From an uncultured Bacteroidales bacterium (GTDB lineage: Bacteria; Bacteroidota; Bacteroidia; Bacteroidales; UBA932), in assembly GCA_900321715.1 (NCBI GenBank), contig ONXC01000005.1, positions 1 through 64,000 on the forward strand: 64,000 nucleotides of DNA. Reading direction: 5' to 3'. Below, piece after piece: positions 3,124 through 22,280 of this stretch. Below the pieces are notes generated by a model, which was given only the letters and a program-made list of their open reading frames with translations, was not told the origin of the DNA and searched no databases. The position numbers and the translations under genes were made by a program. Position 1 is the first letter of the stretch. Every line of letters begins with the position of its first letter.

Positions 3124-3426
3124 TTACCTTGAATACAAGTGCGGTGTGAGGTATTCGGAGCTGGGTTTAAGTATCAATTGTCCGTCTTCTATCACTTCCT
3201 CAAGCGATGTCCTGGATTTGGCTTTCCCTTTTACCTGCACCCAGTGCTCAAGGTCTTCCGAGCGGTAACAGCGAAAACCATCGTTGGATTCGGTTCCAAA
3301 GGCATAATAGGTGTCCCCTTCCAGATAAATGAAAGGATCGGCCAGATTCATCTGCCCCAAAGGCTGCCCGCTGACTACCATGGCAGCCAGCGGGAGTAAC
3401 AGAAGTATTATTGATAGTTTTCGCAA
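3124..3426 (-). pseudogene. Truncated GH43-type five-bladed propeller protein (first blade only)
   Basis: A 100-residue frame with a clear signal peptide (about residues 1-20, LSIILLLLPLAAMVVSG) and then NLADPFIYLEGDTYYAFGT and GFRCYRSEDLEHWV. That is the first blade of a GH43-like glycosidase, with the catalytic-base Asp position in ADPF. GH43 domains are ~300 residues; here the frame stops after the first blade and the rplQ terminator follows, so both other catalytic acids are gone. The only available start is TTG at 3424-3426, with an in-frame stop two codons upstream. It begins 3 bases after the FucP stop, so it is translated, if at all, by coupling. Most likely a decayed end of the operon; a small secreted carbohydrate-binding relic is possible. 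Confidence 0.65.
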
Positions 3427-3429
3427 TTG

Positions 3430-4863
3430 TTATGCTTTTAGCTTTTCCTGCTTGCGGCAGAAGACTGCGGCATAGTAGAATATAACTGCGAAAGCGATTG
3501 CCGGGACTATATAGGCCAGGGCGATACTGCCGGATTGGTCGGACAGAATACCTTCAATCTGTGTGAGCACGCTTGCACCGGCGATGGCCATGACCATGCC
3601 TGATCCTCCAAGCTTGGTGTCTTCACCAAGGCCCTCGCAACCCAGACCGTAGATGGTGGGGAACATGAGGGAGAGGCAGCCGCTGATGCACATGAGGCAG
3701 TACACTCCAAAGAAGCCTTTACCAAGCACTGTACCAAGGCAGAAGGCAACTCCCAGACCGGCCATGATAGAGAGCAGACGGCGGGGGCTCACCCATTTCA
3801 TAAGCCATGTGCAGACGAAGCGCATTATCACAAAGAGCACCAGTGACATGATGTAATATGTTGCGCCGGCTTGTTCGGCCGTACGGGGCAGAAGGACATC
3901 CAGCCCAACGGCGTCACAGATGTTATAGAACCCGGCTGCAATGGGCTCCACTCCGCGAAGGGCTCCAATGATCTGTTCTGTGGAAGCGCCGGGGCCGAGT
4001 GAAGAGATTACATCGTCAAAATGCAGGTTCTGCATGGCGTAGCGTATGGTATATGACCACACGGCTATCTGTGCGCCAATGTCAAAGAACTGAGCCACCA
4101 CGCCCCATACATAATTCTTGTTCTTGATAAGGCGTTTACCTGAACCCTTAAGGTTCATGGGGCCGCTCTCCTCCTTGAGGTTTGGCATCTTGGTCAGGTA
4201 GATGGCCAGGAGAATGGCCAGCATAACAACGCCAAGGATGATGTATGTAGTGGTTACGGCATTCAGCTCTCCCATCTGGATGGAGGCCAGTTCACTTTCA
4301 CTGAGCTGGGCTCTGGCCGATGCAGTAAGAGTGTTGAGCTGTGAGAGGATGAAAATCTGGGATATCACCACTCCGGTAATGGCTCCGAAAGGATTGAAAG
4401 ACTGCGCAAAATTGAGGCGGCGCGTGGCTGTATCGGCAGGACCCAGGGCAAGAACATAAGAGTTGGTTGCCGTCTCAAGGATGGATAGACCTGCAAACAG
4501 CACCAGTATGGCAAACAGGAACATCATGTAGCCCACGGTATTGTTTGCTACAGCCACCCTGGAAGCAGGGAAGAACAGGAAAGTGCCCAGGGAATACAGC
4601 GCAAGTCCCAGCATTACGCCAGACTTGTATGAATATCTCTTGATGAATATGGCACCCGGGATTGCGAAGCATCCATATCCCAGCAGGTAGCATACAACCT
4701 GAATCCAGGCTGTCTTTGAGTCGGACAGGCTCATTATCCGCTTGAAGGCGGCAAGCATGGTGTCCGTGAGGTTGTTGGGGACGGCCCATGCGAAGAACAG
4801 GCAGGTCAGGAGTATAAAAGGCCAGACTATGCCTTTAGGAACAAGTCTTGATTTTTCTGCCAT
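3430..4863 (-). CDS. fucP: FucP-type sugar:H+ symporter (predicted D-arabinose importer)
   Basis: Inner-membrane MFS transporter of the fucose-galactose-glucose:H+ symporter family, 477 residues, about 12 membrane segments. It aligns well with E. coli FucP from memory: FFAWAVPNNLTDTM contains Asp34 (E. coli Asp46), LSILETATNSYVLALGP contains Glu130 (E. coli Glu135), both needed for proton-coupled transport, and RRLNFAQSFNPFGAI follows. E. coli FucP carries L-fucose, L-galactose and D-arabinose, which share stereochemistry. The absence of fuculose genes here, and the ribokinase and arabinose-5-phosphate isomerase upstream in the same operon, argue for D-arabinose. It starts 6 bases after the DUF6786 gene. 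The family call is sure; the substrate is inferred. Confidence 0.88.
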   Translation of the reverse strand: MAEKSRLVPKGIVWPFILLTCLFFAWAVPNNLTDTMLAAFKRIMSLSDSKTAWIQVVCYLLGYGCFAIPGAIFIKRYSYKSGVMLGLALYSLGTFLFFPASRVAVANNTVGYMMFLFAILVLFAGLSILETATNSYVLALGPADTATRRLNFAQSFNPFGAITGVVISQIFILSQLNTLTASARAQLSESELASIQMGELNAVTTTYIILGVVMLAILLAIYLTKMPNLKEESGPMNLKGSGKRLIKNKNYVWGVVAQFFDIGAQIAVWSYTIRYAMQNLHFDDVISSLGPGASTEQIIGALRGVEPIAAGFYNICDAVGLDVLLPRTAEQAGATYYIMSLVLFVIMRFVCTWLMKWVSPRRLLSIMAGLGVAFCLGTVLGKGFFGVYCLMCISGCLSLMFPTIYGLGCEGLGEDTKLGGSGMVMAIAGASVLTQIEGILSDQSGSIALAYIVPAIAFAVIFYYAAVFCRKQEKLKA

Positions 4864-4869
4864 TGCACA

Positions 4870-6084
4870 CTATTTTGATGAAAAAACACTTGCTATCTTG
4901 TCCAGGCTTACTCCAAAGACTTGCTCAACTATTGAGGAAAGCAGGGCGGGATCTCCCTGGATGTGGATGGTATACTGGACGTGGGTGAGGCTCTCTCCGG
5001 GGGCCAGGGCGGCACCGGGTGAGGACGTTTCTATCTCATAGAAAGGACCCTGGACGAATCCTGTCTCGGTGGGACCGTCGTTGTAGGAATTGATTACGTC
5101 ACCGCCAAAAGGATTGTCCTGGTGGCCCCACTGGCCGTTTACATAATCTACATCGCCTTCGGGAACGGTATATTTCAGGATATTCAGAACGCCCTGGGCG
5201 GAGTCGTAGCTGCCGCATATGTCCTTGGCGCTTCCCGAAGGAAGGCCGATCTTGGACCGGTATTCTCCGTCAATCTTGAAATAGAACATTCCATCTTCGT
5301 AGACCAGACGTTCTGAGGGGACCTTGCCAAAATACTCATCGTTTATTTTCCTGCCTTGGAAGTCCGGATTGCAGGGGATGAACACTGTTGTTGTGGGGGT
5401 GGGATTAAAAGAGCCAAGCAGCCACACGGAAGGCATACCCGTCTCTTTGGTCCAGGCCGATTCACCCTTGTTGGTAAGAGTGTTCTCAGTCTTGTAGGCC
5501 AGGGATTTCAGTTCCTTGGGAATGTCTACTCCAAGGAGGTCTTTGAGCTCTGAGGCATCTACAAGGGACACGGTGCGGAGAACTCCGATGCGGAAACAGT
5601 TGTCTGAAGCGTTAACGGCATCAAAGTCCTTTGAGAGGACAACCTTGCTTTGGGTTTGCTCCAGGATGTCATAGGGATCTGTGTCTATATAGGAGGGAAC
5701 TTTCCAGTTTTCATAGACCTGTTCCTCTCCCTTCCGGAAATACCAGGAAAAAGGCCCTCCTTCCGGGCCGATCCAGAAACGTTCCTCCCCGCCGAATGGA
5801 TTGAACTGGGGGCTGACCTTGCCGGCATCAATGAAGCGGTAGTTGGTCCAACCGTAGCTTGTGCCTTCATTTCCGTCTGTGGTGGAAGTCTGGATGCGAC
5901 CCTGCCATGCAGGAATGACCATCACTTTGGATTGACCGTCCACGAGCTCCACGATGCCTATGCCGTGCTTGGCGAAGTAGGCGACGTCATAACCATAAGT
6001 ACCCATCTTGTAATCATTGTTGTTACAGCCGGCGAAGCAGCATAGCGCAGCTCCTAGGGCAATAATTTTAAATACCTTTTTCAT
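4870..6084 (-). CDS. DUF6786-like lipoprotein, mutarotase-like fold suspected
   Basis: A 404-residue lipoprotein; signal peptide with lipobox CFAGC, Cys at about 20. The body begins GTYGYDVAYFAKHGIGIVEL and contains VMVIPAWQGRIQTST and FNPFGGEERFWIGPEGG, which I recognise as the DUF6786 type common in Bacteroidota. The pattern of a strand that handles an aldose-like ligand recalls galactose-mutarotase (aldose 1-epimerase)-type beta-sandwiches, but I see no proven catalytic pair. It lies between the isomerase and the symporter genes (12 and 6 base gaps), so it belongs to the same sugar pathway. A periplasmic mutarotase or sugar-binding role before FucP is inference. Confidence 0.6.
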   Translation of the reverse strand: MKKVFKIIALGAALCCFAGCNNNDYKMGTYGYDVAYFAKHGIGIVELVDGQSKVMVIPAWQGRIQTSTTDGNEGTSYGWTNYRFIDAGKVSPQFNPFGGEERFWIGPEGGPFSWYFRKGEEQVYENWKVPSYIDTDPYDILEQTQSKVVLSKDFDAVNASDNCFRIGVLRTVSLVDASELKDLLGVDIPKELKSLAYKTENTLTNKGESAWTKETGMPSVWLLGSFNPTPTTTVFIPCNPDFQGRKINDEYFGKVPSERLVYEDGMFYFKIDGEYRSKIGLPSGSAKDICGSYDSAQGVLNILKYTVPEGDVDYVNGQWGHQDNPFGGDVINSYNDGPTETGFVQGPFYEIETSSPGAALAPGESLTHVQYTIHIQGDPALLSSIVEQVFGVSLDKIASVFSSK

Positions 6085-6096
6085 TTTTATTGTAGT

Positions 6097-6699
6097 TCAT
6101 TTCATCTCTCCCAACTTGCCTCCGGGATGGCATCTGTGGTATTTTTCCTTGTCCCAGTCCTTCTCTACCTGAAGGAGGACGCTCAGTGCCTGGAGGGCTA
6201 TCATTTCCGCGTTCACGGAATTGCGGGGTGCACGGCCCAGCGGGCCGCCTTCTTCATCAACACCTGCAAAAATGGTGCTTTCTGAATGCTCAGAAAGCCA
6301 GCTGTTGGGATTTCCGGTTACAGCTATCACCTTGCATCCGTTGGCATGGATGGCGTTTACTGTGGCCTTCAGCTCAGCGGTCTCTCCGGAATTGGAAATG
6401 GCTATCACAACGTCTCCTTCCACAAGCTGCCCGCAGGATCCGTGGACGGCTTCGGTGCCGTGGAGAAAACAGGCCGGGTTGCCGGTAGATGCCAGCAGGG
6501 AAGCCACATACGCCGCCACATGGGCGGGCTTCCCGATACCTGTCACATGTATCCTTCCGCCCCGGGCCTGGGAATCCAGGATTATATCGGCCGCCTTGCA
6601 GCAGGAATCCAGATTGAAACCGTCTATGTACGCAGCCGTACTTGCCTTTGCCTTACGGAGGAAGGTCTCCGTAGCCTTAATGCTCTTTTCCTGTATCAT
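6097..6699 (-). CDS. Arabinose-5-phosphate isomerase, SIS domain only (KdsD-like, no CBS)
   Basis: A 200-residue SIS-domain sugar-phosphate isomerase interconverting D-arabinose 5-phosphate and D-ribulose 5-phosphate in the cytoplasm. Key residues match E. coli KdsD with a constant shift of two: Lys57 (KdsD Lys59) in GIGKPAH, His86 (88) in EAVHG, Glu109 (111) after SNSGET, Glu150 (152) and His191 (193) in HPGGKLG. The CBS pair of KdsD is absent, as in short arabinose-5-phosphate isomerases known from Bacteroides. Those serve KDO synthesis; here the gene sits inside a glycan-utilization operon behind a ribokinase, so a catabolic direction is likely. Its ATG overlaps the ribokinase stop (TAATG), implying translational coupling. 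GutQ-type or other SIS isomerase activity is the alternative. Confidence 0.88.
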   Translation of the reverse strand: MIQEKSIKATETFLRKAKASTAAYIDGFNLDSCCKAADIILDSQARGGRIHVTGIGKPAHVAAYVASLLASTGNPACFLHGTEAVHGSCGQLVEGDVVIAISNSGETAELKATVNAIHANGCKVIAVTGNPNSWLSEHSESTIFAGVDEEGGPLGRAPRNSVNAEMIALQALSVLLQVEKDWDKEKYHRCHPGGKLGEMK

Positions 6700-7679
6700 T
6701 ATAATAAGTTTAGCAATTGATTACATCCGCGTTCTTCAAGCAGCTCCTTGACCTGCGCCATTGTGGGAAGTGAAGGTATGGCTCCAAAGCCGCAGACTGT
6801 TATTGCAGCAGTGTGCACTGCCAGCAAGATGGCCTTGTCAATTGAAAGGCCGCACACATATCCTGCGCAGAAAGCTCCAACAAAGGAGTCTCCGGCGGCT
6901 GTGGGGTCCTTTACATCGGTCATCTTTACACAGGGGACATGAATCAGGCTTTCAGGCGTGCATAAGGCTGCACCTTCGTCGCCAAGGGTGATGATTACAT
7001 TGGGAACGCCCTTGCCCATAAGGATTGATGCTGCTTCCTTCAGCGCCTCCTCAGAGAGTCTTCCCTGCCCGTCTGTCTTTACGCCGGACAGGAGCGATGC
7101 CTCTGTCTCGTTGGGAGAGATGAAAGTGACGCAGGATAGTAATTGGGCCGATAGTGGAGCTGCCGGGGCAGTGTTCAGCATGACCGGAACGCCGGCGTCC
7201 TTGGCAACGCGTGCAACGTATTCAATGGTGGGCATTTCCAGTTCAAGCTGCATTATCACCATGTCATAGCCGCCTATCTCATCCTTAAGCCATCCAAGGT
7301 CTTCAGGTTTAAGGTCAAAATTGGCCCCGGGAACCACTATGATGCTGTTTTGAACTCCGGACTCTCCAGTCTGGATGCGTATATGTCCTACGCCCGATGG
7401 ATGCTCATGGCTTATCTTTACGTGCCGAGTATCCACTCCGGAAGAATTCAGGGCCTGAAGCATAACCTGTCCGTACATGTCATCTCCGACACAGCCTGCC
7501 ATATGGGTTTCAACTCCCAGCCTTGCAGCCTGTACAGCCTGGTTGGCTCCCTTGCCTCCAGGAGCAGTCTTAAATGAGTTGCCAATTACGGTCTCGCCCA
7601 TATTGGGCACCCTGTCAGCCGTGGCAACAAGGTCCATGATGAAGCTGCCGACGACCAGTATTTTGGGTTTCTTGTTCAT
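6699..7679 (-). CDS. rbsK: Ribokinase-family (PfkB) pentose kinase
   Basis: Cytoplasmic PfkB-type kinase, 326 residues, phosphorylating the C5 hydroxyl of a pentose with ATP. It has the N-terminal signature GGKGANQAVQAARLG (residues 41-55), NETE near 190 and the C-terminal DPTAAGDSFVGAF with catalytic Asp264. I take the ATG at 7677-7679 (MNKKPKILVVGSF), 13 bases after the susD1 stop; a longer in-frame extension runs back into susD1 and has no family match. Ribose is the usual substrate, but the coupled arabinose-5-phosphate isomerase gene makes D-arabinose a good candidate, giving D-arabinose 5-phosphate. Closest to ribokinase rather than fructokinase by the two signatures. Confidence 0.88.
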   Translation of the reverse strand: MNKKPKILVVGSFIMDLVATADRVPNMGETVIGNSFKTAPGGKGANQAVQAARLGVETHMAGCVGDDMYGQVMLQALNSSGVDTRHVKISHEHPSGVGHIRIQTGESGVQNSIIVVPGANFDLKPEDLGWLKDEIGGYDMVIMQLELEMPTIEYVARVAKDAGVPVMLNTAPAAPLSAQLLSCVTFISPNETEASLLSGVKTDGQGRLSEEALKEAASILMGKGVPNVIITLGDEGAALCTPESLIHVPCVKMTDVKDPTAAGDSFVGAFCAGYVCGLSIDKAILLAVHTAAITVCGFGAIPSLPTMAQVKELLEERGCNQLLNLL

Positions 7680-7692
7680 GACATTCCATTTA

Positions 7693-9549
7693 TTACTCAG
7701 TTCCTCCGTCTCCGGCAGTGACTGTTGTCCAACCTGTATTCTGCAGAAGGAGGTGTTTATTGTTTTTGTCAACCTCAGACTGGGGTATAGGGAAGAAATA
7801 GTGCTTGGGGGATTCAAACACGCGGTTCTCTACGAATATCCTCTTGTAGAAGGCGGGATCCTGCTGAGATGTGCCTTCCCAGATGTTCATGGAGTGGATG
7901 GGGCCGCCTTCGCCGTCTACGGTCTTCCATCGGCGTACATCAAACCAGCGATGAACTTCAAATGCCAGTTCAATCCTGCGCTCATGATGAATCCTCTCAC
8001 GCATCTTGTCCTTGTCAAGACCGGCATCAAGGCCGGGAAGGCCTGCGCGTGTGCGGATGGCATTCACATAGTCATACACTGTTGTTGAAGGACCGGAATA
8101 CTCGTTGAGGGCCTCTGCGTAGTTCAGATAAATCTCACCCAGACGGATATAAACCCAAACCTGATTAGGAGTATACTGCCAGGGAATATGCGTGGGATAA
8201 TGGAATTTTTTCATCAGATATCCCGTCTTGCAGTAGTCTGATCCGGCGTTATTCTTGCCGTCAATTCCGGTGAACCAGAATTCGTTGACGTGTGGAGCCG
8301 TCCAGTTGCTGGCGCGGGAAGTCTTCCATATTCCGCCGGCAAAGTTGATGGAGGCATAGAAACGGGGTTCTCTGTGGGTGTACATATTGGATACGCCCAC
8401 TTCCCACCTGCCGGCCTTGGAATCTGTGGAGAATCCGGCTTCTACATATCCTGAAGCGGGATTGATAATAGGAGTGAGACCATTGTTGGTGTAGCCCGTT
8501 ATGGGTGTGGAGCCATCTTCCATCTCATAGGCGTCAACCATTTCCTGTGTGGGGTCAAAAATGGAATAGCAGCCAAAGGATGTAGGGTCGCTACAGTTTA
8601 GCCAGTGATCTGTAGCGCCGTTGTTACGGCCCCATAATACTTCCTTGTTCCAGTTGTCATTGAAGATGTTCTGGTAGTTTTTCACAGGGTCTGCGGGCAG
8701 ATCCTTGTCATAGAGGCCATGCCCGGCAGCCTCGGCGGCGTCTATGCACTCCTTTGCCGCATCTGCCGCGGCTTTCCATTTCTCGGGGTCATATGTCTGG
8801 GAAATAAGGTTTTCTCCAGTAACAAGATCCTTGAGCTCTGCAAAGTCAGGGTTGCCGTTGTACAGAGGGGAGGCGATATACAGCAGGACTCTGCTCTTGA
8901 GGGCAAGCGCAGCAATCCTGGTAGCCCTGGCCTGGTCTTCAGAAGCCCAGGAGTCCTTGTCAATCAGATATTCGGCCGCCATGTCGCAGTCATCGGATAT
9001 GAATTTGGCAACATTGTCTGCAGGAGCCCTGGTTATGGAGGCTATATCTTCATTGATATCAAGAACATGATCAATAATGGGGATGGGGCCGTAAGCGCGG
9101 AATATCATAAAATGATAGAATGCCCTGAGGAAATAGGCTTCACCTTTCATCCACCTTATTTCATCGGCCGTAGCCTCCGAGCATCTGTCTACGTTTTCTA
9201 TGACCATGTTGGCCTTACGGATTGCTTCGTACATGGTATTCCAGATGTGTGCGGCGAAGTCGTCAATGGGGGCCCATGCGCCACTGCTCATGGCATGGGA
9301 GACGTGGCCGCCGAATGCGATTTCCATCTCATCGCATGCTCCGGTGAAGTTGTTGTCCCACGCCATATCGGCATGGAAAGGAAGATAGGAATATGTATTT
9401 GCAAGGAAGGCCCTGGTTTGCAGGCGGTTGGAGAAAACGTCGTCAATTGTGAGGTTCTCATCCGGTGACATGTCCAGGAATTTCTCGCATGATGAAGCGC
9501 AAGCAAGGATCACTGCGGTTGCTGAGAAAATGTATAATATCTTTTTCAT
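7693..9549 (-). CDS. SusD/RagB-family glycan-binding lipoprotein 1
   Basis: Outer-membrane, surface-facing SusD-type lipoprotein of 618 residues that caps the SusC1 barrel and binds the oligosaccharide. Lipobox CASSC at about 21, then the typical EKFLDMSPDENLTIDDVF; TPR-like helices in the middle (GEAYFLRAFYHFMIFRAYG) and the SusD C-terminal segment (IRLGEIYLNYAEALNEY; MRERIHHERRIELAFE; FFPIPQSE). It starts 17 bases after the susC1 stop and shares most of these motifs with SusD2 at 24442-26364. Second gene of the uptake and catabolism operon. Confidence 0.95.
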   Translation of the reverse strand: MKKILYIFSATAVILACASSCEKFLDMSPDENLTIDDVFSNRLQTRAFLANTYSYLPFHADMAWDNNFTGACDEMEIAFGGHVSHAMSSGAWAPIDDFAAHIWNTMYEAIRKANMVIENVDRCSEATADEIRWMKGEAYFLRAFYHFMIFRAYGPIPIIDHVLDINEDIASITRAPADNVAKFISDDCDMAAEYLIDKDSWASEDQARATRIAALALKSRVLLYIASPLYNGNPDFAELKDLVTGENLISQTYDPEKWKAAADAAKECIDAAEAAGHGLYDKDLPADPVKNYQNIFNDNWNKEVLWGRNNGATDHWLNCSDPTSFGCYSIFDPTQEMVDAYEMEDGSTPITGYTNNGLTPIINPASGYVEAGFSTDSKAGRWEVGVSNMYTHREPRFYASINFAGGIWKTSRASNWTAPHVNEFWFTGIDGKNNAGSDYCKTGYLMKKFHYPTHIPWQYTPNQVWVYIRLGEIYLNYAEALNEYSGPSTTVYDYVNAIRTRAGLPGLDAGLDKDKMRERIHHERRIELAFEVHRWFDVRRWKTVDGEGGPIHSMNIWEGTSQQDPAFYKRIFVENRVFESPKHYFFPIPQSEVDKNNKHLLLQNTGWTTVTAGDGGTE

Positions 9550-9566: not shown

Positions 9567-12500
9567 TTAGAATCCTACTTCAATGCCGATGGTAGCCGCC
9601 AGCTGGGTAGGGTAGGTGCTGGCTCCAAGGTGGTTGGACTCGGGGTCTACTATGCCCTTCAGGCCGTCGAAGCAAAGAAGGTTGTTGCCATTGATGAATA
9701 AACGGAGTTTCTCAAGCCCTATCCTGGATGTGATCTTCCTGGGGAAAGAGTATCCGACTTCGGCCGTCTTCAACTTGAGGAAAGAAGAGTCGTGCAGGTA
9801 GAGGGTGTTAATCTGGTAGTTGTTGGTAGAGGTTCCGTTATGCACAACCGGATAGAGGGCGTTGGTGTTATCGGCCCCGGGGATAAAGCGGTTGTCATAG
9901 TATTCACGGTAGATGTTATATCCCGGATAATCAAGCTGGAAAGGCCACATGCCTGCAGCATCCAGAAGTATGGTTGCGTTGGCTGCACCGGTGAAATTGG
10001 CCGATACATCGAAGCCTTTCCAGGCCACGGTAAAGCCAAATCCATACATTATCTCCGGCTCACGGGCGTACCCTATGAATACTCTGTCGTAGGGATTGAT
10101 TACGCCATCATTGTTGACATCCTTGTATTTTATGTCGCCCACGGTATACGTGCCCAGCTCCTGCTTGGGGCTGTTGTCAATTTCTTCCTGAGACTGGAAC
10201 AGCCCGAGGGCTATATATCCAAGAGGGATCCCGATGGACTTTCCGCGGGTGTTCTGGTAGCTCCATAAGGCCTGTGCTGTGTCGTCTTCTATGACAGTGT
10301 TATGTGCGTAGGTCACATTACCGCGAATCTGGTAATAAAGCCCATAGGATGTTGTGTTGGTAAACTCAATGTTGGCATCAAAACCGGTATTGTCCATTAT
10401 GCCGATATTGGAAAGCGCCAGCTGATTTGACGCAAGACCTATGGTTCTGGGGACGGACCCTCTTTCCAAAAGGATATTGGTACGGTGCTCATAGAAATAG
10501 TCTCCTGACAAACGCAGTTTGCGGTCAAACATCTCCAGATCAAGGCCTACATCGGCCTTATTGGAGACTTCCCAGGAAGCCAGAGGGGAGCCCATCCGGG
10601 ATTCGGCCACGCCTCCAATTCCTTTGGACTGATCATAACTGAAGGTGTAACCGTTAGCATTCTTGTTGATTGTAGACATGTAGAAGAAACGCTGAGCATT
10701 GAGGGAGTCGTTACCTACAGTTCCATAAGAGCCCCTTATCTTAAGGTGATCGATGAAACTGACGTTCCACCATTTTTCTTCTGAAGGAACCCAGCCGGCA
10801 GACACAGCAGGGAAGAAGCCGTATCTATGACCGGGGGCGAAGTTTTCGGAGCCGTTGTATCCGGCGTTGACTTCAAAGAGGTAGCGCTGCCTGTAATTGT
10901 ATGCAAGTCGGCCGGCGAACCCCTGACGCCTGTAAGGCAGCTGGGCGGTGGAATTCCCTGCGGTAAGGTCTGAATAGTCCCTTAAGTTAGCCATAAGGAG
11001 GGCCGATACTCCATGACCATTGAATACGCGGTCATAATTGATTCGGGCATCGGCATAGTAGGACCTGTTGGAAACATTATAGGCCAGATAGTAGCCCATG
11101 GTTCCCTCTTCCTGAATCACATTGTAGCGGTCTTCACCCGTAACGGGATCAGGCCCCAGGTATTTCTTCAGCTCAGGTTGTTTGCGGCGGGTTGCCTCAA
11201 CACTGTAATAGTGGTCATAAGCGAAGTTGCCTTCAATCACAAGGCCCGGAGTAATCAGTGTCCCCAGATCCCATTTGGCGCCAAAAGTGCCCTGGGTTGT
11301 GGAGCGGAACTGTTTTGAGAAGCCATTATTGGTGGTAAGGACATACGGACTGTTCTTCTCATAAGATGTATTGGATGAACCAAAGGAGCCGTCCGGGTTA
11401 CGGATGGGATAGGTTATGGGATTGACAACCTTGAGGGACCAGAATATGTCTCCTGCAGGTGTTCCGGGATATGTCCTGTTCTCCACTATTTCCGCAAGGC
11501 CAAGGGTTAGGGTGAAGTTCTTGGTAACATTCACGTCCACATTGGTGCGGAAGTTATATCTCTGTGACAGGGAGTTGGTCCTGTAATTATATGCAGGGTC
11601 TTCCTTGAAAAGGCCGCTTTCTGAAGAGAATCCGGCGCTGACATAATAGCGGACTATTTCATTACCGCCGCTTACGGATACTGTGTTTATGGTCTGGAAG
11701 GCATTCTTCTTGAGTACGGCATCCGTCCAGTCTACGCTGGGATAGTTGTAGGGGTCCGAGCCATCCCTGAAGAGTTCAATCTCTTCATCGGACCATGGCA
11801 AGGCAACTCCACCTGTTTCGCAGGCTTCATTCATAAGGGTGGCAAACTCCCAGCCTTTGATGTAGTTGGGGAAGCGAAGGCCGTGAAGCAGGGAGGATTC
11901 TGACCTGAAGGAGACACGGGGCTTTCCGGCCGTTCCTTTCTTTGTGTTGATAAGGATAACGCCGTTAGCTCCCCGCATACCGTAAACTGCGGTTGCAGAA
12001 GCGTCTTTGAGGATTGAGAAAGACTCTATTTCATCAGTGTTGATAAGGTTGATATCTCTCTCGATGCCGTCCACAAGGACAAGCGGACTGGAATTGAGCC
12101 ATGTCCCCGCTCCACGGATAAGGAGGGTGGCGCCGTCATAGCCGGGCTCTCCGGATCTCTGGCGGGAGATTATGCCCGGGACAGTGCCGCCCAGCGCATT
12201 TGCAAGGGTGGGCGTGGTGGCTTTACCTACAATCTCCGTGTTCACCACGGTAAGGGCTCCCGTGACCGTTGCTTTCTTCTGGGTGCCGTAGCCAATGACA
12301 ACGGCATCTTCAAGGGATTCCATGTCAGGCTCCAGGGCCACGTCAATGGTGCTTCTGCCGTCAATCCTGATTTCCTGGGTCTTGTAGCCTATGGCCGATA
12401 TTACCAGAATTCCCTTGGAGTCGTTGACCTTGATAAGGTAGGTACCGTCCAAATCCGTTATTGTTCCAACATTGGACGCCTTGAGCATGACTCCAGCTCC

Positions 12501-12668
12501 AATAGAGGGCTCTCCTGTTGATGCATCGGTTATGGTACCGGATACAGTAATTGACTTTTTCCCCTGTGCGTTTACGCTCAAGGGAAGCGCAAGCATTTCC
12601 AAAGCAAGGAGTGAGAACAGGACCAGACGCCCTATGGAAACGCCGCGGATTTGGGTCTTAATTGACAT
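9567..12668 (-). CDS. SusC/RagA TonB-dependent outer-membrane transporter 1
   Basis: A 1033-residue TonB-dependent transporter. Signal peptide (about 1-35), carboxypeptidase-regulatory-like domain (KKSITVSGTITDASTGEP...), TonB-box region VVIGYGTQKKATVTGALT, plug domain with GANGVILINTKKG, and a 22-strand barrel ending in the aromatic residue of IGIEVGF. Forms a bin-like complex with SusD1. It heads the operon that ends with FucP, so it imports the oligosaccharide whose monomer FucP and the kinase handle. About two-thirds of its N-terminal half matches SusC2 by eye, suggesting a duplication. A -33/-7 promoter lies at 12843-12873 and two operator-like sites flank the leader. Confidence 0.96.
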   Translation of the reverse strand: MSIKTQIRGVSIGRLVLFSLLALEMLALPLSVNAQGKKSITVSGTITDASTGEPSIGAGVMLKASNVGTITDLDGTYLIKVNDSKGILVISAIGYKTQEIRIDGRSTIDVALEPDMESLEDAVVIGYGTQKKATVTGALTVVNTEIVGKATTPTLANALGGTVPGIISRQRSGEPGYDGATLLIRGAGTWLNSSPLVLVDGIERDINLINTDEIESFSILKDASATAVYGMRGANGVILINTKKGTAGKPRVSFRSESSLLHGLRFPNYIKGWEFATLMNEACETGGVALPWSDEEIELFRDGSDPYNYPSVDWTDAVLKKNAFQTINTVSVSGGNEIVRYYVSAGFSSESGLFKEDPAYNYRTNSLSQRYNFRTNVDVNVTKNFTLTLGLAEIVENRTYPGTPAGDIFWSLKVVNPITYPIRNPDGSFGSSNTSYEKNSPYVLTTNNGFSKQFRSTTQGTFGAKWDLGTLITPGLVIEGNFAYDHYYSVEATRRKQPELKKYLGPDPVTGEDRYNVIQEEGTMGYYLAYNVSNRSYYADARINYDRVFNGHGVSALLMANLRDYSDLTAGNSTAQLPYRRQGFAGRLAYNYRQRYLFEVNAGYNGSENFAPGHRYGFFPAVSAGWVPSEEKWWNVSFIDHLKIRGSYGTVGNDSLNAQRFFYMSTINKNANGYTFSYDQSKGIGGVAESRMGSPLASWEVSNKADVGLDLEMFDRKLRLSGDYFYEHRTNILLERGSVPRTIGLASNQLALSNIGIMDNTGFDANIEFTNTTSYGLYYQIRGNVTYAHNTVIEDDTAQALWSYQNTRGKSIGIPLGYIALGLFQSQEEIDNSPKQELGTYTVGDIKYKDVNNDGVINPYDRVFIGYAREPEIMYGFGFTVAWKGFDVSANFTGAANATILLDAAGMWPFQLDYPGYNIYREYYDNRFIPGADNTNALYPVVHNGTSTNNYQINTLYLHDSSFLKLKTAEVGYSFPRKITSRIGLEKLRLFINGNNLLCFDGLKGIVDPESNHLGASTYPTQLAATIGIEVGF

Positions 12669-12697
12669 AGCAGTTCAAATAAAATGTTCCGTATAAC

Positions 12698-12713
12698 GCT
12701 AAATCGTTATAGC
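12698..12713 (+). promoter_or_regulatory. Operator-like palindrome O1 (susC1 leader)
   Basis: GCTAAATCGTTATAGC, a near-perfect dyad with central CG, about 30 bases upstream of the susC1 start codon and downstream of its predicted promoter. It shares the left half-site GCTAAA with five other sites in the locus and has the shape of a LacI-family operator. The LacI gene at 36657 is the likely binder. Assignment is by motif sharing only. Confidence 0.6.
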
Positions 12714-12842
12714 TTTTAAAGCAAAAAAGAAACCTGAAACTGTCAGGGTAAACAACTTAAAAATTTGCCTTACTAATTGGGTTTCAATAACTTGGTTAAT
12801 GGTAGCAACAAAAATATGTCGGGCTTTTCTATGTTGCTGTTG

Positions 12843-12873
12843 CAAATATATGTACTTTATTCTGGAAAAACAA
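12843..12873 (-). promoter_or_regulatory. Bacteroidota promoter of the susC1 operon
   Basis: Read on the minus strand: TTG (12873-12871), 20 bases, then TATATTTG (12850-12843), which fits the Bacteroidota TTTG/TAnnTTTG consensus. The predicted start is near 12836, giving a leader of about 170 bases before susC1. Confidence 0.6.
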
Positions 12874-12880
12874 GGGATTT

Positions 12881-12896
12881 GCTAAAACAATTTAGT
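12881..12896 (+). promoter_or_regulatory. Operator-like palindrome O2 (upstream of the susC1 promoter)
   Basis: GCTAAAACAATTTAGT, one copy of the shared dyad. It lies 7 bases upstream of the susC1 -33 element and just after the GH183 stop codon. O1 and O2 are about 183 bp apart centre to centre, a distance that would allow looping by a tetrameric LacI protein. Confidence 0.6.
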
Positions 12897-12900
12897 TTAA

Positions 12901-14343
12901 TTATAAACCTTTAATGTCTAAAGACATGAGATAGGTATTGTATGGTAGCCACATGGACATTATGAAGTACAGCTTCCCGCCTTCCTGCTTGGACAAGGGG
13001 TGGATGAATGAGCCATAAAGCTGTGGATAACTCCAGCCGGAAGCCACGGTGAGAGGGTCGCTCCAGGGGCCGGTTATTTTGTCGGCATAACGCATGGTAA
13101 TCTCATACCTGGGCCCGTTGAAATACAGTATGACCCATTTCTCGAATTCCGGGAGATACTCAACCGATAGTTCACCTGCTATGTCGTCAATCAGGGTTGT
13201 AGCCTCCTTCTCCTGGCCCTTTTTCCAGTCGGCACCATTCCAGAACTCATACTGGGACTGACTCTCGATGCCCGATTCCTTGACTCTGGCGAGCTTGGGC
13301 TTGGAATCCCTTCCGGACTGAGTACCTACCATATAGACGTATCCGTCGCCGATATTGCAGAATCCAACCTGGCCGAAGAAACTCTCGCCGCCCCAGCTGA
13401 TGCCGTTAACCTTGTCCCATGTGCCGCCGCCGTCCATTGAACGGTACATGCCGGAATAGTTTGTAACCCACCCATCCCAGGTTTTGATGTTGAAGTAATG
13501 GACGTAATCACGGTTGTTGGCGTGGACGGCCGATGTGGGGATGGAGGTGTAGTCTCCAAACCCGTTGGTGACGTGGGCGCTGTATATTATCTGCCTTGCA
13601 CGGCCCCCCTGGTCCATAGCCGCGCCGGATATCCTCAGGCCGTCTTCAAGGTTTGTGTCGTCAGAGTATAGCAGCACGTTGCTTCGCCAGGAACCGCCAT
13701 TAGGACCAGGAGCGCTGAAATTTGGATTGAAATCGGCCCCGAAAGTGTCTCCAAAGAAGAGACCGTAGTAGCCGGAAGATATTTCCCACACTATTCCCAG
13801 GTCTGTGCCGCCCACATTATATTTGGTGTCGGTGCCGTTATTTACGGTGTATTTCACGGCTGGAAGACCGTCGTGACCGTTGTTCTCCTTGCCGGTGACG
13901 CGGGAAACCATTTGAAGGTTGGAGATAATGAGCCTTGAGTATTTTCGGCCTTCTGTATCCTTCTGATTATCTACAATAGCCACAGCAGTTTCACTCTTGG
14001 CGCCGTCTATGCCTACCAGGGTGAATTCAAAACGGAACTGGGCATCGTCCGTGGGAAGCATGGTGTAGTTATATGTATACTCCTTGCTGAGAACTCTCGG
14101 GTAATAGTTGATACTCTGCACGCCAACCGAAGTGATCTTATCTATGGTCATATACTTTGTCTGTTCAAGACCGCTTATGGTCATAGATATGGCAAGTTTG
14201 CCGTTTACGGGATAGACGGTCTGCTCCAGGGGAGTTATGCTCAACTCCTCTGGAGGCAGCTCAGGCTCTGCCGACGGCTTCTGACAAGCCACCAGAGCCA
14301 TTGCTGTCAGGCTTAATGCTATGGCTAAATATTTAATTCTCAT
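12901..14343 (-). CDS. GH183 (DUF4185) lipoprotein, predicted endo-D-arabinanase
   Basis: A 480-residue lipoprotein (lipobox LVAC, Cys20). Residues ~30-135 form an N-terminal beta domain; from ~170 a DUF4185 propeller begins: GTDLGIVW, GLFFGDTFGADF (FGDTF at 197-201), SWRSNVLLYSDD (218-229), MYRSMDGGGTWDKV, GYVYMVGTQSGRD, FEKWVILYFNG. DUF4185 was assigned as GH183, endo-acting D-arabinofuranases, from work on mycobacteria and D-arabinan-degrading Bacteroidota (from memory). Its start overlaps the stop of the upstream gene by 4 bases (ATGA). The partner GH172 two genes upstream gives the matching exo activity. Likely surface-exposed, cutting D-arabinan into oligosaccharides for SusCD. Family call good; activity inferred. 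Confidence 0.82.
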   Translation of the reverse strand: MRIKYLAIALSLTAMALVACQKPSAEPELPPEELSITPLEQTVYPVNGKLAISMTISGLEQTKYMTIDKITSVGVQSINYYPRVLSKEYTYNYTMLPTDDAQFRFEFTLVGIDGAKSETAVAIVDNQKDTEGRKYSRLIISNLQMVSRVTGKENNGHDGLPAVKYTVNNGTDTKYNVGGTDLGIVWEISSGYYGLFFGDTFGADFNPNFSAPGPNGGSWRSNVLLYSDDTNLEDGLRISGAAMDQGGRARQIIYSAHVTNGFGDYTSIPTSAVHANNRDYVHYFNIKTWDGWVTNYSGMYRSMDGGGTWDKVNGISWGGESFFGQVGFCNIGDGYVYMVGTQSGRDSKPKLARVKESGIESQSQYEFWNGADWKKGQEKEATTLIDDIAGELSVEYLPEFEKWVILYFNGPRYEITMRYADKITGPWSDPLTVASGWSYPQLYGSFIHPLSKQEGGKLYFIMSMWLPYNTYLMSLDIKGL

Positions 14344-15404
14344 TTGATTCTGTTTATTCGTTTGATAATCTTTGCGGGTTTATCCGGGTCTATCCCAAAA
14401 TAATATACGGCTCCCTGGCGGAAAGGCTCCACAAGTTCGAAGTTCTCGAAGGCGATGCCACCGGGGATTGTCTTCAATATGGCCCAGTAGGTGTATCGGC
14501 CATTCACTACACTGTACATCTCATCCTGGGGAAGGGGGCAGTACCAATACTGAGTGGCGGGGATGCCTTTATAGTCCCAGCCTTTGAAGGTGCCTTCCTC
14601 ATATACGGCGTTCTGGTAGTCCGCTTCTGTTTCGGTTGGGTAGGCAAGCACCCAGGCTCCACCATTGCGGTCACGGACCATATCCTTAAGGAAGGTGTAC
14701 TCATAGGGAGTAAACCATTTATCCCTGTAATCAGGCCAGAGGTCATAGGAGAGTTTTGTTACTCCATCCGCGGCATAAAGGCGTCTGAGGCGCATTTTAT
14801 TGCCCATCGTGGCGGTCAGTATGAATTTATCAAGAGGGGCCGATTGGGCGGAAGCGAAAGCCTGGAGTTCAAACTGATATGGACTGCCCTCGATAAAGCG
14901 CAGGCGGACGTAGACATCGGCACCGTTGTCAAACTTCTCGCAGAAAATCCATACGGTAAGAGTCTGTTTCCCGTCCTCTACGGCAACAGTGCCGCGGGCA
15001 GGATGGAGCTTGTCCCAGGTTGCGGGCCTTTCGGGAGTGTCGCTGCTGCGGAATTGCTTTCCCTGAACTCCATCCAGAGCGCTGCTTTCCAACTCTGAAT
15101 AGCCCCGGTTCTGCGAGGATGCTACTATTGGCTCCATGGCGATAAAATTGATTATATTCATGTCGCCGGCTCCAAGATATGGGGCGTAGATATCCAGAAG
15201 ACCACGGGGGCGGCCGGGAGGGTTGATGCCCACCCTTATTCCGTCGGCAAAGCCCCAAACGGCCATGGACGGTGTGTCCTGGGCAGGACGGACCCATATT
15301 CCGTCCTGCCGGGGAGGCTCAAGCCGCACTCCGTCTATGACCATCTGTGCAAATGCCACTGTGCAGCATAGGATTGAGCACAGGAAAGTTGCGGTCTTTT
15401 TCAT
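14340..15404 (-). CDS. Secreted protein of unknown family between GH172 and GH183
   Basis: A 354-residue protein; I start at the ATG 15402-15404 (MKKTATFLCSILCCTVAFAQ), a good signal peptide cut after AFAQ; the longer frame adds nine residues with no value. No lipobox follows, so it is periplasmic or secreted. I do not recognise the family. It looks beta-rich, with ordered motifs GLLDIYAPYLG, MNIINFIAMEPIV, GYSELESSALDGVQGKQF, VRLRFIEGSPYQFELQAF, YDLWPDYRDKWFTPYEYTFL, AWVLAYPTETEADYQNAVYE and GWDYKGIPATQYWYCP. The gene is tightly packed: 2 bases after the GH172 stop and a 4-base overlap with GH183, so it should act on the same D-arabinan-type substrate, as an accessory hydrolase or binding protein. 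Confidence 0.7.
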   Translation of the reverse strand: MKKTATFLCSILCCTVAFAQMVIDGVRLEPPRQDGIWVRPAQDTPSMAVWGFADGIRVGINPPGRPRGLLDIYAPYLGAGDMNIINFIAMEPIVASSQNRGYSELESSALDGVQGKQFRSSDTPERPATWDKLHPARGTVAVEDGKQTLTVWIFCEKFDNGADVYVRLRFIEGSPYQFELQAFASAQSAPLDKFILTATMGNKMRLRRLYAADGVTKLSYDLWPDYRDKWFTPYEYTFLKDMVRDRNGGAWVLAYPTETEADYQNAVYEEGTFKGWDYKGIPATQYWYCPLPQDEMYSVVNGRYTYWAILKTIPGGIAFENFELVEPFRQGAVYYFGIDPDKPAKIIKRINRIK

Positions 15405-15406
15405 AA

Positions 15407-16567
15407 CTAGTTCACTTCCAGTTCCTGCCATGAAGGGAAGGCGGGGAATTTACCGTGAGGCTCGGCCTGGTACCAGAACACTGTGGCCGATATGTCGGAG
15501 TGCTGGGCCAGGTATCGGCCATCGTGCCTCCAGCCAAGGTCCTGGATGGTTACCTTCAGGTTTTTCTCAAAGCGGATAGGGTCCATTATATGCCAGCGGT
15601 ACAGGCCGAAGCGCTCCTGGGAGCGGTATGTGCCGTCCGGGCGTATGACCTGGCATAGTCCGGCGTAAGGGGTGCAGAACTCAATGAATCGGCCATTACG
15701 GTCAAAGTTATATGAGCCGCAGAAATAGTCTTCCGTGCCGGTGCTGCAAATGGTGGGGAACTGTTTATCGTCGTCGATGAAGAACTTGATCTCTCCTTCT
15801 CCCCACCAGCCGTTGTTGTGCAGGCCCCAGGCAAGATAGACGCCCACATACTGGCCCTTGCCCTTGATTCCGTCTATGATGGTGAAATCCGAAGTCTCGT
15901 TATAGGGGGTCCTTCTGAACTGGGCGTGGAAATAACCGGCGTCTTCCGGGACCTCCGTGAGAGTGTAGTCTATCTGATAATAGAGGGTCATTTCGTCGCG
16001 GTCATTGACGTTCTCCATGGTAATCTTGCACTTCTTGCGGAAAGGCATCTGCCAGTAGCAGTTGAAGGCGCTGCCGGGATTAACGCACACTGGCAGTGAT
16101 ACCAGAGGGGCATACTCGTTCCAGCCCATGCAGAAGAAGTCCGCTATGGGGCATTCCACAGAAGGAGTTGTTTCGTCGTCCCAATAGATGCGGATAATGG
16201 TCCAGCGCCAGACACCTGTAGGAGTCATCCAGATGTGCTGGATGGCACCGGGACCCTCTATTTCCGCTATGGTGACGGTTTCTCCGGAGGCTATCCTGAT
16301 GTATGGATTGACCTTCCAGCCTTTGCCAAGGTCACGGGCGGCCCAGGATGCGTTATTGACGTTCCGTGTGTTGGGAAGGGCTACATCGGCCATTCCGCCC
16401 TTTCCCTTTTCACCGGTGAAATTTTCCGGGGAGATTGAGCGGGATTTTGCGTCTGAAAGCCTGGAGAGGTTACCCATGTTCATGTCAAGTCCGTTGAACT
16501 TCTGGGCATAAGAAACAGTAACCGCTAAAAACACGGTTAACGCAGAGAGAATAATACCTTTTTTCAT
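15407..16567 (-). CDS. GH172 (DUF2961) glycosidase a, predicted exo-alpha-D-arabinofuranosidase
   Basis: A 386-residue secreted enzyme; signal peptide 1-21 (SYAQ). The DUF2961 body runs from ~30: RSISPENFTGEKGKGGMA, GPGAIQHIWMT, RIYWDDETTPSVECPIADFF, WWGEGEIKFFIDDD and STGTEDYFCGSYNF. By analogy with the characterised alpha-D-fructofuranosidase of this family, the catalytic pair is Glu257 (WWGE) and Glu279 (GTEDY). GH172 members act on alpha-D-arabinofuranosides or the stereochemically similar alpha-D-fructofuranosides. It has its own promoter with an operator between -33 and -7 (16620-16650) and leads a three-gene transcript with the unknown secreted protein and GH183. Confidence 0.88.
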   Translation of the reverse strand: MKKGIILSALTVFLAVTVSYAQKFNGLDMNMGNLSRLSDAKSRSISPENFTGEKGKGGMADVALPNTRNVNNASWAARDLGKGWKVNPYIRIASGETVTIAEIEGPGAIQHIWMTPTGVWRWTIIRIYWDDETTPSVECPIADFFCMGWNEYAPLVSLPVCVNPGSAFNCYWQMPFRKKCKITMENVNDRDEMTLYYQIDYTLTEVPEDAGYFHAQFRRTPYNETSDFTIIDGIKGKGQYVGVYLAWGLHNNGWWGEGEIKFFIDDDKQFPTICSTGTEDYFCGSYNFDRNGRFIEFCTPYAGLCQVIRPDGTYRSQERFGLYRWHIMDPIRFEKNLKVTIQDLGWRHDGRYLAQHSDISATVFWYQAEPHGKFPAFPSWQELEVN

Positions 16568-16686: not shown

Positions 16687-18531
16687 TCAGGGTAAAGGCA
16701 TCCCAAAAATCTCTTTCAGGCGCGAAGAATCATATTTGACTCTTCGGTCGAAGTAGTAGATGCCGTTCTGCTCCTGCTGGACATCGGTAAGCTGTGTATA
16801 GCAAAAACCCCATACGCTGTCGCTGAGTTCTATCAGGGCACGGACCTGGCCTTCAAGGCGGGCATAGAACTCTTCCTTTGTCTGTGGAGCTGAACCGTAT
16901 CCCCATGCGCCGTCTTCCGGAGGATTCACTTCCATACAGCGTATGCCGCCGAATTCGTCCACAATGTAAGGGGCGCTGCCGTCATATTCCGGGAAATTGG
17001 AAGGAGTATCCAGTTCCGGACGGTTGTAACCTACATTTCCGCGGTAAAGAAGCTGGCGCTCTCCGTTGTAGAGGAACATCTTGCCGTCATTCCATATTAT
17101 CTCCTTGAGCCGGGCGGGATCCTGCTCATAGTGGTGTACGGCCCAGATGTCGGTCTTTATTATGACTCCGCCGCTGACGGTGTTTATGGGACGGGTGGGG
17201 TCAATGCTCTTGGTTATGTCGTATACATCGGCAATGAATCTGGGATACTGGACGTTGTCGGGCCAGAACTCTTCGTTGAAAGGGGTCCAGGTAACGATTG
17301 AGGGATGGTTCATGTCACGTGAGACCACGTTTGTCCATTCGCTGAGATAGTTTCGGGCGGCAATTGGGTCGTTGCAGTCAAGTCCCCAGCTGGGGCACTC
17401 TCCCCAGGTTATATATCCCAGTTTATCGGCCCAATAGTGAAAACGCTCCTCAAACACTTTCTGGTGCAGGCGGGCGCCGTTGAATCCCACTTCCATGGAC
17501 ATTTCTATGTCGTGACGGAGTGCTTCGTCGGAGGGCGCCGTCCATATTCCGTCGGGATAGAATCCCTGATCCAGGACAAGGCGCTGGTAGAAGGGCTCGT
17601 TATTGAGGAAAATGCGATTTCCCTCAATATGTATCTTCCTCATGCCGAAATAGGATTTCACCTTGTCAACCACCTGTCCGTTGGCATCAACCACTTCAAA
17701 TACTACGTCGTAGAGGAAGGGGCTGGAGGGGCTCCAAAGCCGGGCCTTCTTTATGGGGAGGGTGAAAATGGATCCGTCAGCAGCGGCTCCGCTTTGTCTG
17801 GCCACCAGTTTGCCATCGGCATATACCATTATATTAAGGGTTGTGGCCGATGGGTTCCGGAACCAGGTCTGGAAGCTCACCGCAGAGCGGTCTATGTCTG
17901 TGGTGGTCTTTACACGGTCAAGGCCCTGATGAGCCACGGCTTCCATCCACACCGTTTGCCATATTCCGGTTGTGCGTGTGTACATGCACTCGAAGTTATC
18001 GGCACGGAGAGACTGCTTTCCGGCCGTCTGACGTTTGGAGCGAAGGTCGCTGGTGGCGTTGACGACAAGAGTATGGGTGTTACCTGGGGTAACGAAGCGC
18101 GTGATATCTACGCCAAAGGAGTCGGAGCCGCCAAAATGCCGGCAAACGAAACGTCCGTCAATATAAACCTCCGAGCAGTAATAAACCGCGCCGAAGTTAA
18201 GGACTATGTCCTGGCCGGCCCAATTGGCAGGAATTGATATTTCCTTCCTGTACCAGATGCTGGGGATGAATTCCTTATACTCCACACCGGATAGTTTGCT
18301 TTCCGGAGCAAAGGGAACCAGTATCTTTCCGTCCGAAAAATTTCCGGCGGCCAGCCCCCGGTCCCATCCGGTAGAGGCGGGGTCTATGGAATAATCCCAT
18401 TCTCCGTTGAGGTTGATCCAGCTTGTGCGCTCAAATTGAGGACGGGGATATTCCGCCCTGGGGAGAGCTTTTGCGCCAATGCCCATAAGCAGTATGGCAA
18501 GGGTGGCCAAAATGGTTGCAATCTGTTTCAT
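16687..18531 (-). CDS. GH2 glycosidase a (compact, secreted)
   Basis: A 614-residue GH2 enzyme with signal peptide (cleavage near 22, AKALP). Order: jelly-roll sugar-binding domain (RTSWINLNGEWDYSID ... SIWYRKEISIP), Ig-like domain (~200-295), TIM barrel (~300-614). Catalytic acid/base Glu420 in WTPFNEEFWP and nucleophile Glu526 in YIVDEFGGI. It lacks the C-terminal domains of large beta-galactosidases. It follows GH43 by 19 bases. GH2 includes beta-galactosidases, glucuronidases, mannosidases and galactofuranosidases; in a D-arabinan locus a galactofuranosidase would fit arabinogalactan, but the sequence alone does not decide. Confidence 0.85.
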   Translation of the reverse strand: MKQIATILATLAILLMGIGAKALPRAEYPRPQFERTSWINLNGEWDYSIDPASTGWDRGLAAGNFSDGKILVPFAPESKLSGVEYKEFIPSIWYRKEISIPANWAGQDIVLNFGAVYYCSEVYIDGRFVCRHFGGSDSFGVDITRFVTPGNTHTLVVNATSDLRSKRQTAGKQSLRADNFECMYTRTTGIWQTVWMEAVAHQGLDRVKTTTDIDRSAVSFQTWFRNPSATTLNIMVYADGKLVARQSGAAADGSIFTLPIKKARLWSPSSPFLYDVVFEVVDANGQVVDKVKSYFGMRKIHIEGNRIFLNNEPFYQRLVLDQGFYPDGIWTAPSDEALRHDIEMSMEVGFNGARLHQKVFEERFHYWADKLGYITWGECPSWGLDCNDPIAARNYLSEWTNVVSRDMNHPSIVTWTPFNEEFWPDNVQYPRFIADVYDITKSIDPTRPINTVSGGVIIKTDIWAVHHYEQDPARLKEIIWNDGKMFLYNGERQLLYRGNVGYNRPELDTPSNFPEYDGSAPYIVDEFGGIRCMEVNPPEDGAWGYGSAPQTKEEFYARLEGQVRALIELSDSVWGFCYTQLTDVQQEQNGIYYFDRRVKYDSSRLKEIFGMPLP

Positions 18532-22227: not shown

Positions 22228-22260
22228 TTGGGGATTAATTAAAATAATACACTATATTTG
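22228..22260 (+). promoter_or_regulatory. Promoter of GH172b
   Basis: TTG at 22228-22230, then 22 bases, then TATATTTG at 22253-22260. The predicted start near 22267 falls inside operator O4, leaving only ~14 bases of leader before the ATG at 22281. Confidence 0.5.
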
Positions 22261-22261
22261 T

Positions 22262-22277
22262 GCTAAATCGTATTAAG
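22262..22277 (+). promoter_or_regulatory. Operator-like site O4 (over the GH172b start)
   Basis: GCTAAATCGTATTAAG. The first ten bases are identical to O1 (GCTAAATCGT); the right half is degenerate. It overlaps the predicted transcription start of GH172b. Confidence 0.55.
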
Positions 22278-22280
22278 TCA

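Follow-up and report, generated by a model that had tools for sequence, protein, structure and literature searches.

A D-arabinose 5-phosphate (A5P) isomerase is usually known as an enzyme of 3-deoxy-D-manno-octulosonate (KDO), and the locus described here raises the question of what a protein of this type is doing beside a kinase, a sugar symporter and a SusCD pair. The locus lies in the window, that is, the whole stretch of 64,000 nucleotides analysed, which covers positions 1–64,000 of contig ONXC01000005.1 of an uncultured Bacteroidales bacterium (UBA932; GCA_900321715.1; G000 among our genomes). Its minus strand carries a run from 12668 to 3430, with gaps of at most 17 bp, encoding a SusC-like TonB-dependent transporter (9567–12668), a SusD-like protein (7693–9549; both by Pfam), a PfkB/ribokinase-family kinase (6699–7679; PF00294), an SIS-domain sugar-phosphate isomerase without CBS (6097–6699; PF01380; PDB 5uqi, 3etn and 2xhz), a DUF6786 protein (4870–6084; PF20583) and a FucP-type symporter (3430–4863). 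ATG 7679 is the most likely kinase start, and in TAATG at 6701–6697 the kinase stop TAA and the SIS start ATG have one A (6699) in common. An earlier, sequence-only reading of this DNA had placed FucP, the SIS protein and the kinase in this SusCD operon, with the SIS start overlapping the kinase stop, and the coordinates, Pfam and profile matches agree with it.

We consider it likely, judging from sequence and setting, that the kinase–SIS pair converts D-arabinose through A5P to D-ribulose 5-phosphate (Ru5P). In this scheme, for which we infer the substrates of the kinase, the isomerase and FucP as well as the compartments and the direction of flux, the outer-membrane SusCD proteins and the GH183, GH172 and GH116 enzymes would convert D-arabinan to D-arabinose, FucP would bring the sugar into the cell, the PfkB kinase would phosphorylate it at O5, and the SIS protein would isomerise the resulting A5P to Ru5P for the pentose phosphate pathway. 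This is the best reading because the pair stands in a D-arabinan locus, a related locus has FucI and an FGGY kinase in its place, the cassette kinases carry Gly98 and have lost Asn14, KdsA and KdsB do not reach cut-off in 36 of 37 genomes of the genus, and the genome itself, which is 80.6% complete, gave no FucI match. The sequence-only reading had reached the same route from FucP and did not mention the GH183, GH172 and GH116 genes that point to the substrate; the D-arabinan genes, the FucI/FGGY locus, the kinase residues and the lack of KdsA and KdsB over cut-off now support it on independent and stronger grounds.

The predicted D-arabinan locus and its FucI-type counterpart

In mycobacteria, D-arabinose is the sugar found in arabinogalactan and lipoarabinomannan. 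The GH183 (DUF4185) endo-D-arabinanase relative of the window (12901–14343, minus strand; PF13810) matched only endo-α-D-arabinanase in the PDB (8hhv, E 2.7e-56; 8ic1, E 1.4e-55), while the top match of the GH172 (DUF2961) relative (15407–16567, minus strand; PF11175) was the exo-α-D-arabinofuranosidase 8ic8 (E 2.9e-111), followed by a difructose enzyme (7v1v, 9.8e-45). Likewise, the GH116 protein (34059–36599, plus strand; Pfam) matched the exo-β-D-arabinofuranosidase 8ic6 best (E 2.3e-115), with β-glucosidases at 2.4e-7 or weaker. The symporter scored 410 bits on TIGR00885 (cut-off 280), matched the fucose symporter 3o7q (E 4.6e-76) and is proposed as the D-arabinose importer, D-arabinose being a known substrate of FucP. 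The GH183, GH172 and GH116 families are reported to act on mycobacterial D-arabinan in Dysgonomonas gadei and Microbacterium (PMC10115798, PMC10509167). The window also holds one more protein each of DUF4185 and DUF2961, and another SusCD pair (56–62% identical to the first). We took GH183 and GH172 together with SusCD as the mark of a D-arabinan locus, and with all of these present the kinase and SIS genes sit, by sequence, in a predicted D-arabinan utilisation locus. This gut bacterium would seem able to feed on the D-arabinose polymer of mycobacterial walls.

We compared 37 genomes of the genus with 24 genomes from other families of the order (61 in total), and used 393 genomes for order-wide searches. 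DUF4185 was found in one of the 37 genus genomes, namely that of the window. In the order, strong DUF4185 matches (E ≤ 1e-30) occurred in three further genomes (G266, G096 and G373), and the locus in G266 (L111–L112) encodes GH183, a 363-residue family without Pfam assignment, GH116, GH172, DUF6786 and FucP, and alongside them an FGGY ribulokinase and FucI (1040 bits on TIGR01089). Identities to the window proteins were 65% for FucP, 72% for GH172, 63% for GH116, 37% for DUF6786, 46% for GH183 and 47% for the Pfam-less protein. G266 has FucI and the FGGY ribulokinase where the window has the PfkB kinase and the SIS isomerase; the 40 kb fetched from G266 gave no kinase–SIS pair, and neither FucI nor FGGY kinase was recognised among the 24 window proteins scanned with Pfam. 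Both modules would end at Ru5P. Neither FucI nor the cassette turned up in the ~40 kb fetched around DUF4185 from either G096 or G373. The Pfam-less protein of the window (14340–15431, minus strand), whose structure model gave nothing usable, travels with GH183 in several D-arabinan-type loci, L111 included, and is a candidate new D-arabinan enzyme.

The sequence-only reading had also contrasted this route with the fuculose-type use of D-arabinose. The contrast holds for the genes, with PfkB and SIS where G266 has FucI and FGGY, but the chemistry is probably not new: Propionibacterium pentosaceum reportedly (Volk, around 1960–62) catabolises D-arabinose by the same two reactions, with a D-arabinokinase (EC 2.7.1.54) and a phosphoarabinoisomerase (EC 5.3.1.13). 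To our knowledge no gene has been assigned to the Propionibacterium D-arabinokinase, and a search of open-licence papers found none describing a catabolic route from D-arabinose through A5P to Ru5P. What is new is probably the genes, their setting in the genome and the fact that they stand in for the FucI module.

The kinase and the contexts of its cassette

The window kinase scored 289.5 bits on the ribokinase profile TIGR02152, under the cut-off of 299.65 (the kinase of locus L057 reached 299.3), and a separate ribokinase, 39% identical to it, is encoded on contig 13 of the same genome. By sequence, then, the window kinase is a ribokinase paralogue. We aligned 21 cassette kinases (the window and 20 loci, among them L052, whose kinase is the same as that of the window; the near copy in L053 was left out) with E. 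coli RbsK and 19 non-cassette matches. In E. coli RbsK numbering, position 98 is Gly in all 21 cassette kinases and Ala in all 20 ribokinases compared, while the former have Ile, Met or Val at position 14 (Ile in the window kinase) and all of the latter have Asn. Seven of 65 ribokinase-conserved columns differ in every cassette kinase (14, 27, 50, 98, 99, 107 and 245), and the chance of both 14 and 98 falling among them is about 0.01 if columns are simply drawn at random, an estimate that is rough and in part post hoc. Asp16, Gly42, Lys43, Asn46, Glu143 and Asp255 of E. coli RbsK are all kept in the window kinase. The best PDB match of the kinase, 8cqx, which we take to be an engineered variant, likewise has Gly in the position-98 column, where 6znx has Ala. 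In E. coli ribokinase the A98G change is reported to raise kcat on D-arabinose 15-fold and roughly halve it on ribose (Zayats et al., PMC9604405), so that the natural kinase bears a known arabinose-favouring change. Asn14 of the E. coli enzyme is reported to make no hydrogen bond to arabinose in simulation (PMC9604405), and human ribokinase has served to produce A5P from D-arabinose (PMC11591822).

The kinase and SIS genes also occur together elsewhere, in ruminant-gut Bacteroidales and Oscillospiraceae. In 21 of 27 related loci the cassette kinase lies just upstream of SIS, in one of them (L066) with an open reading frame (ORF) between, and in 11 of the related loci an RbsD/FucU-type protein comes directly downstream, in one case truncated where the contig ends. 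A pyranase in this place would fit an O5 kinase, as O5 is free in the furanose form alone. The kinase might nonetheless be a ribokinase of the ordinary kind, with the SIS protein as an accessory isomerase for another pentose or hexose phosphate and the pair carried in without a D-arabinose role: ribokinase is the best curated family of the kinase, whose score lies only 10 bits under the cut-off, and the RbsD-type neighbours score best with D-ribose pyranase, though under cut-off (~50 against 93). We regard this as unlikely, since the genome has another ribokinase, Ala98 and Asn14 are missing from every aligned cassette kinase, the linkage to SIS is kept across most of the related loci, and ribose 5-phosphate needs no SIS isomerase.

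Under the D-arabinose reading the supply of the sugar may differ between loci. GH183 or GH172 was found in the fetched stretch of six (L052, L053, L054, L059, L061 and L074, the first two being near copies of the window), and L071 showed FucP, DUF6786 and SusCD only. Five others (L056, L057, L058, L060 and L062) have an aldolase of the dihydrodipicolinate synthase (DHDPS) superfamily and an SSF symporter beside the cassette. In two Oscillospiraceae loci (L068 and L069) an aldolase lies just upstream of the kinase; that of L069 resembles N-acetylneuraminate lyase (NAL; 278.4 against a cut-off of 281) and has tricarboxylate-type transporter genes nearby, as read from the sequence, and that of L068 can be aligned with it. 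In a tree of the cassettes a single group (100/99) held those of Bacteroidales and stood apart from those of Oscillospiraceae (83/73), and loci of D-arabinan context were mixed with loci of aldolase context; the bootstrap was unsettled and L070 was a long branch.

The aldolases raise the alternative that the cassette serves an ulosonic acid pathway releasing another sugar (mannose from ketodeoxynononate, or N-acetylmannosamine (ManNAc) from sialate), and that in the D-arabinan locus it handles a side sugar. The aldolase and symporter in five of the 27 loci and the NAL-type enzyme of L069 speak for this; release of ManNAc would, however, presumably need NanE/NanK-type steps as well, a pyranase and an O5 kinase suit an aldopentose, and the D-arabinan context itself supplies D-arabinose. 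In addition, NALs are reported to form KDO from pyruvate and D-arabinose, albeit at a mere 1 to 1.5% of the rate seen with ManNAc (PMC4016182), and KDO cleavage to D-arabinose is for this reason a possible link. All told, we hold a pathway to a sugar other than D-arabinose to be quite improbable.

Tentatively, we propose a wider possibility, namely a mobile D-arabinose cassette common to Oscillospiraceae and ruminant-gut Bacteroidales, with an O5 kinase bearing a natural A98G-type change, a catabolic A5P isomerase and a pyranase, which would be fed both by D-arabinan breakdown and by KDO breakdown through a DHDPS/NAL-superfamily aldolase yielding pyruvate and D-arabinose. Two results tell against the KDO half: the L057 aldolase scored best on dapA (185, cut-off 206) and 135 on NAL, its best PDB match being named dihydrodipicolinate synthase, and no KDO-releasing hydrolase came to light, the BNR protein of L057 having no PDB match.

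The six remaining loci (L072, L073 and L075–L078) have no close cassette kinase, although L076 has a 25% identical kinase match upstream. Two candidates in them were rejected: cluster c38 of L072 and L073 as a kinase, the L073 copy being a PGDH-like dehydrogenase, and cluster c42 of L075 as a TRAP protein, being a phosphotransferase system (PTS) EIIC. Of these distant SIS relatives, those of L072 and L073 neighbour a PGDH-like dehydrogenase and a DHDPS-type protein, and those of L075 and L077 neighbour PTS ascorbate-type genes; the four loci were not counted as kinase–SIS cassettes, and their SIS proteins probably serve other pathways.

The isomerase and the KDO genes

The SIS protein scored 125.2 bits on TIGR00393 (kpsF), under the cut-off of 203.7, and matched only profile positions 1–151 of 268. 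We aligned 32 sequences, 22 clade members and 10 of KdsD type, leaving out L052, L053, L058, L071, L077 and L078. Lys57, His86, Glu109, Glu150 and His191 were invariant in all 32, and being common to clade and KdsD-type rows they show the family, not the substrate. The sequence-only reading had relied on four of them (Lys57, Glu109, Glu150 and His191), and these are indeed present and aligned with the KdsD-type residues, which we take to be Lys59, Glu111, Glu152 and His193 in E. coli KdsD, but they are not diagnostic. Its description of an A5P isomerase without CBS was likewise right as to the domain, yet the lack is ordinary: the open frames of eight KdsD-type matches from the order's other families span 200–245 residues, and the A5P isomerase-family structure 3etn, presumably a B. 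fragilis protein, has 220. The window SIS protein was 51–89% identical to clade members and 30–40% to KdsD-type relatives, and the conserved loops differ, which leads us to name a catabolic subfamily rather than a plain KdsD.

KdsA was over cut-off in one of the 37 genus genomes (G018) and in none of the 12 that are at least 90% complete, against 23 of 24 in other families; KdsB passed in one of 37 against 22 of 24. Neither passed in the genome of the window, and the isomerase is therefore unlikely to serve KDO. The SIS clade was found in four of the 37 genus genomes and, order-wide (E ≤ 1e-45), in one of 393, that of the window; kinase and SIS homologues more than 70% identical were both present, and adjacent, in the same four of the 61 genomes. 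Besides these four carriers, the sole clear KpsF/KdsD-type match in the genus was a 319-residue open frame in G018. In that genome KdsA, KdsB and the KdsD-type gene all lie on one short contig (C50:1–8984, L051), the only such case among the 37, which may be a relic, a transfer or misbinned. Beyond the genus, KdsA was over cut-off in three of the 16 carrier genomes searched from the 27 loci (Pelosinus, Pectinatus and a Myxococcota bacterium).

We rejected a biosynthetic role in KDO supply on these counts, and a part for the SIS protein in biosynthesis or regulation as an A5P isomerase, whether for KDO or for a GutQ-like signal, is very improbable: the protein matches only itself in its genome, in which two further SIS-domain genes are listed, and belongs to the same family as 3etn, but KdsA and KdsB are below cut-off nearly throughout the genus, KdsA is rare among the carriers, and the gene is linked to the kinase in an operon. 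The sequence-only reading had named an isomerase that is the only KDO-pathway copy of the genome as a point that would count against it; the SIS protein is the sole self-match, yet with neither KdsA nor KdsB there the check does not apply.

Several points weigh against the D-arabinose route. The main source of doubt is that two conserved loops set the clade apart, HGSxGQ replacing the HGDLG of the KdsD-type rows and PR[NAT]S replacing their PTxS, so that the substrate might not be A5P. The equilibrium of A5P isomerase is reported to favour A5P, with [Ru5P]/[A5P] at about 0.5 (PMC11591822). Gly98 by itself would not give a good D-arabinose kinase: A98G alone still left a KM of 310 mM for D-arabinose, and in Arabidopsis the activity on ribose reportedly stayed almost the same when the residue equivalent to Asn14 was lost (PMC9604405); moreover, the cassette kinases are related and their substitutions may be one or few events. 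The incompleteness of the genome weakens its absences, and the FucI and FGGY negative in the window covers the 24 scanned proteins rather than every ORF. Of the 33 congeners that lack the cassette, 22 lack FucI too, so that the missing FucI here is not significant (p=0.30), and we dropped mutual exclusion of FucI and the cassette within the genus as evidence. Finally, the cassette-bearing congeners G009, G032 and G034 have no DUF4185 match, and the cassette context in G032 has no obvious D-arabinose source.

Neighbouring genes and comparison with known systems

The DUF6786 protein has a lipoprotein-like start (by eye), and its structure model, although weak (pLDDT 61), gave galactose mutarotases as best Foldseek matches and suggests that it may be a mutarotase. 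DUF6786 occurs with FucP in both kinds of D-arabinan-type locus, that with the kinase–SIS pair and that with FucI. Between SusC and the first GH183 (12669–12900) the window lacks a second GH183 paralogue that L052 and L053 hold, 48–49% identical to the first, which is either a strain difference or an assembly loss. At the other end of the run, a 100-residue ORF (3124–3426) with a GH43-like start (by eye) adjoins ribosomal protein genes and looks truncated; L053 has a 314-residue ORF at the matching place, the two being compared by position. At higher coordinates than GH172 lie, on the minus strand, a GH2-type glycosidase (16687–18531) and a GH43 protein (18551–19642), both by Pfam, and a further GH2-type glycosidase (19741–22173) that is GalA/GalB-like by profile scores, under cut-off. 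These are followed by the second, long DUF2961 protein (22260–24407, plus strand; Pfam), the second SusD-like (24442–26364, 56% identical to the first) and SusC-like (26384–29452, 62% identical) proteins on the minus strand, the second, long DUF4185 protein (29782–32079, plus strand; domain searches) and, beyond GH116, a LacI-type regulator (36657–37688, plus strand; Pfam).

If the proposed route is true, an A5P isomerase, usually a KDO enzyme, has been turned catabolic. The cassette kinases allow the A98G engineering result on ribokinase to be tested in natural enzymes and are candidate D-arabinose kinases for arabinoside synthesis, and the aldolase context offers a testable route of KDO breakdown. 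Were the two-supply cassette also true, an old kinase activity would gain genes and a KDO catabolic pathway would be defined.

Compared with KdsD, GutQ and KpsF and with the CBS-less A5P isomerases of B. fragilis and, reportedly, C. tetani, the window SIS protein is of the same family with the same Lys/His/Glu/Glu/His set, and differs from the KdsD/GutQ/KpsF type in its clade-specific loops and catabolic context. Compared with E. coli RbsK, the window kinase has the same six listed site residues but Gly98, no Asn14 and a longer lid loop. Caldicellulosiruptor is reported to use the fucose pathway for D-arabinose (PMC3637100), and fucose isomerase is reported in D. gadei PUL42 and a putative isomerase and kinase in the Microbacterium D-arabinan locus (PMC10115798, PMC10509167). 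The D. gadei and G266 loci indicate isomerase-first use of D-arabinose, to which the window would add a kinase-first alternative with named genes. Like the window, PUL42 and the Microbacterium locus have GH183, GH172 and GH116 (putative in D. gadei) beside sugar-converting genes, but in the window, with no FucI or FGGY kinase recognised among the proteins scanned, these are a PfkB kinase and an SIS isomerase.

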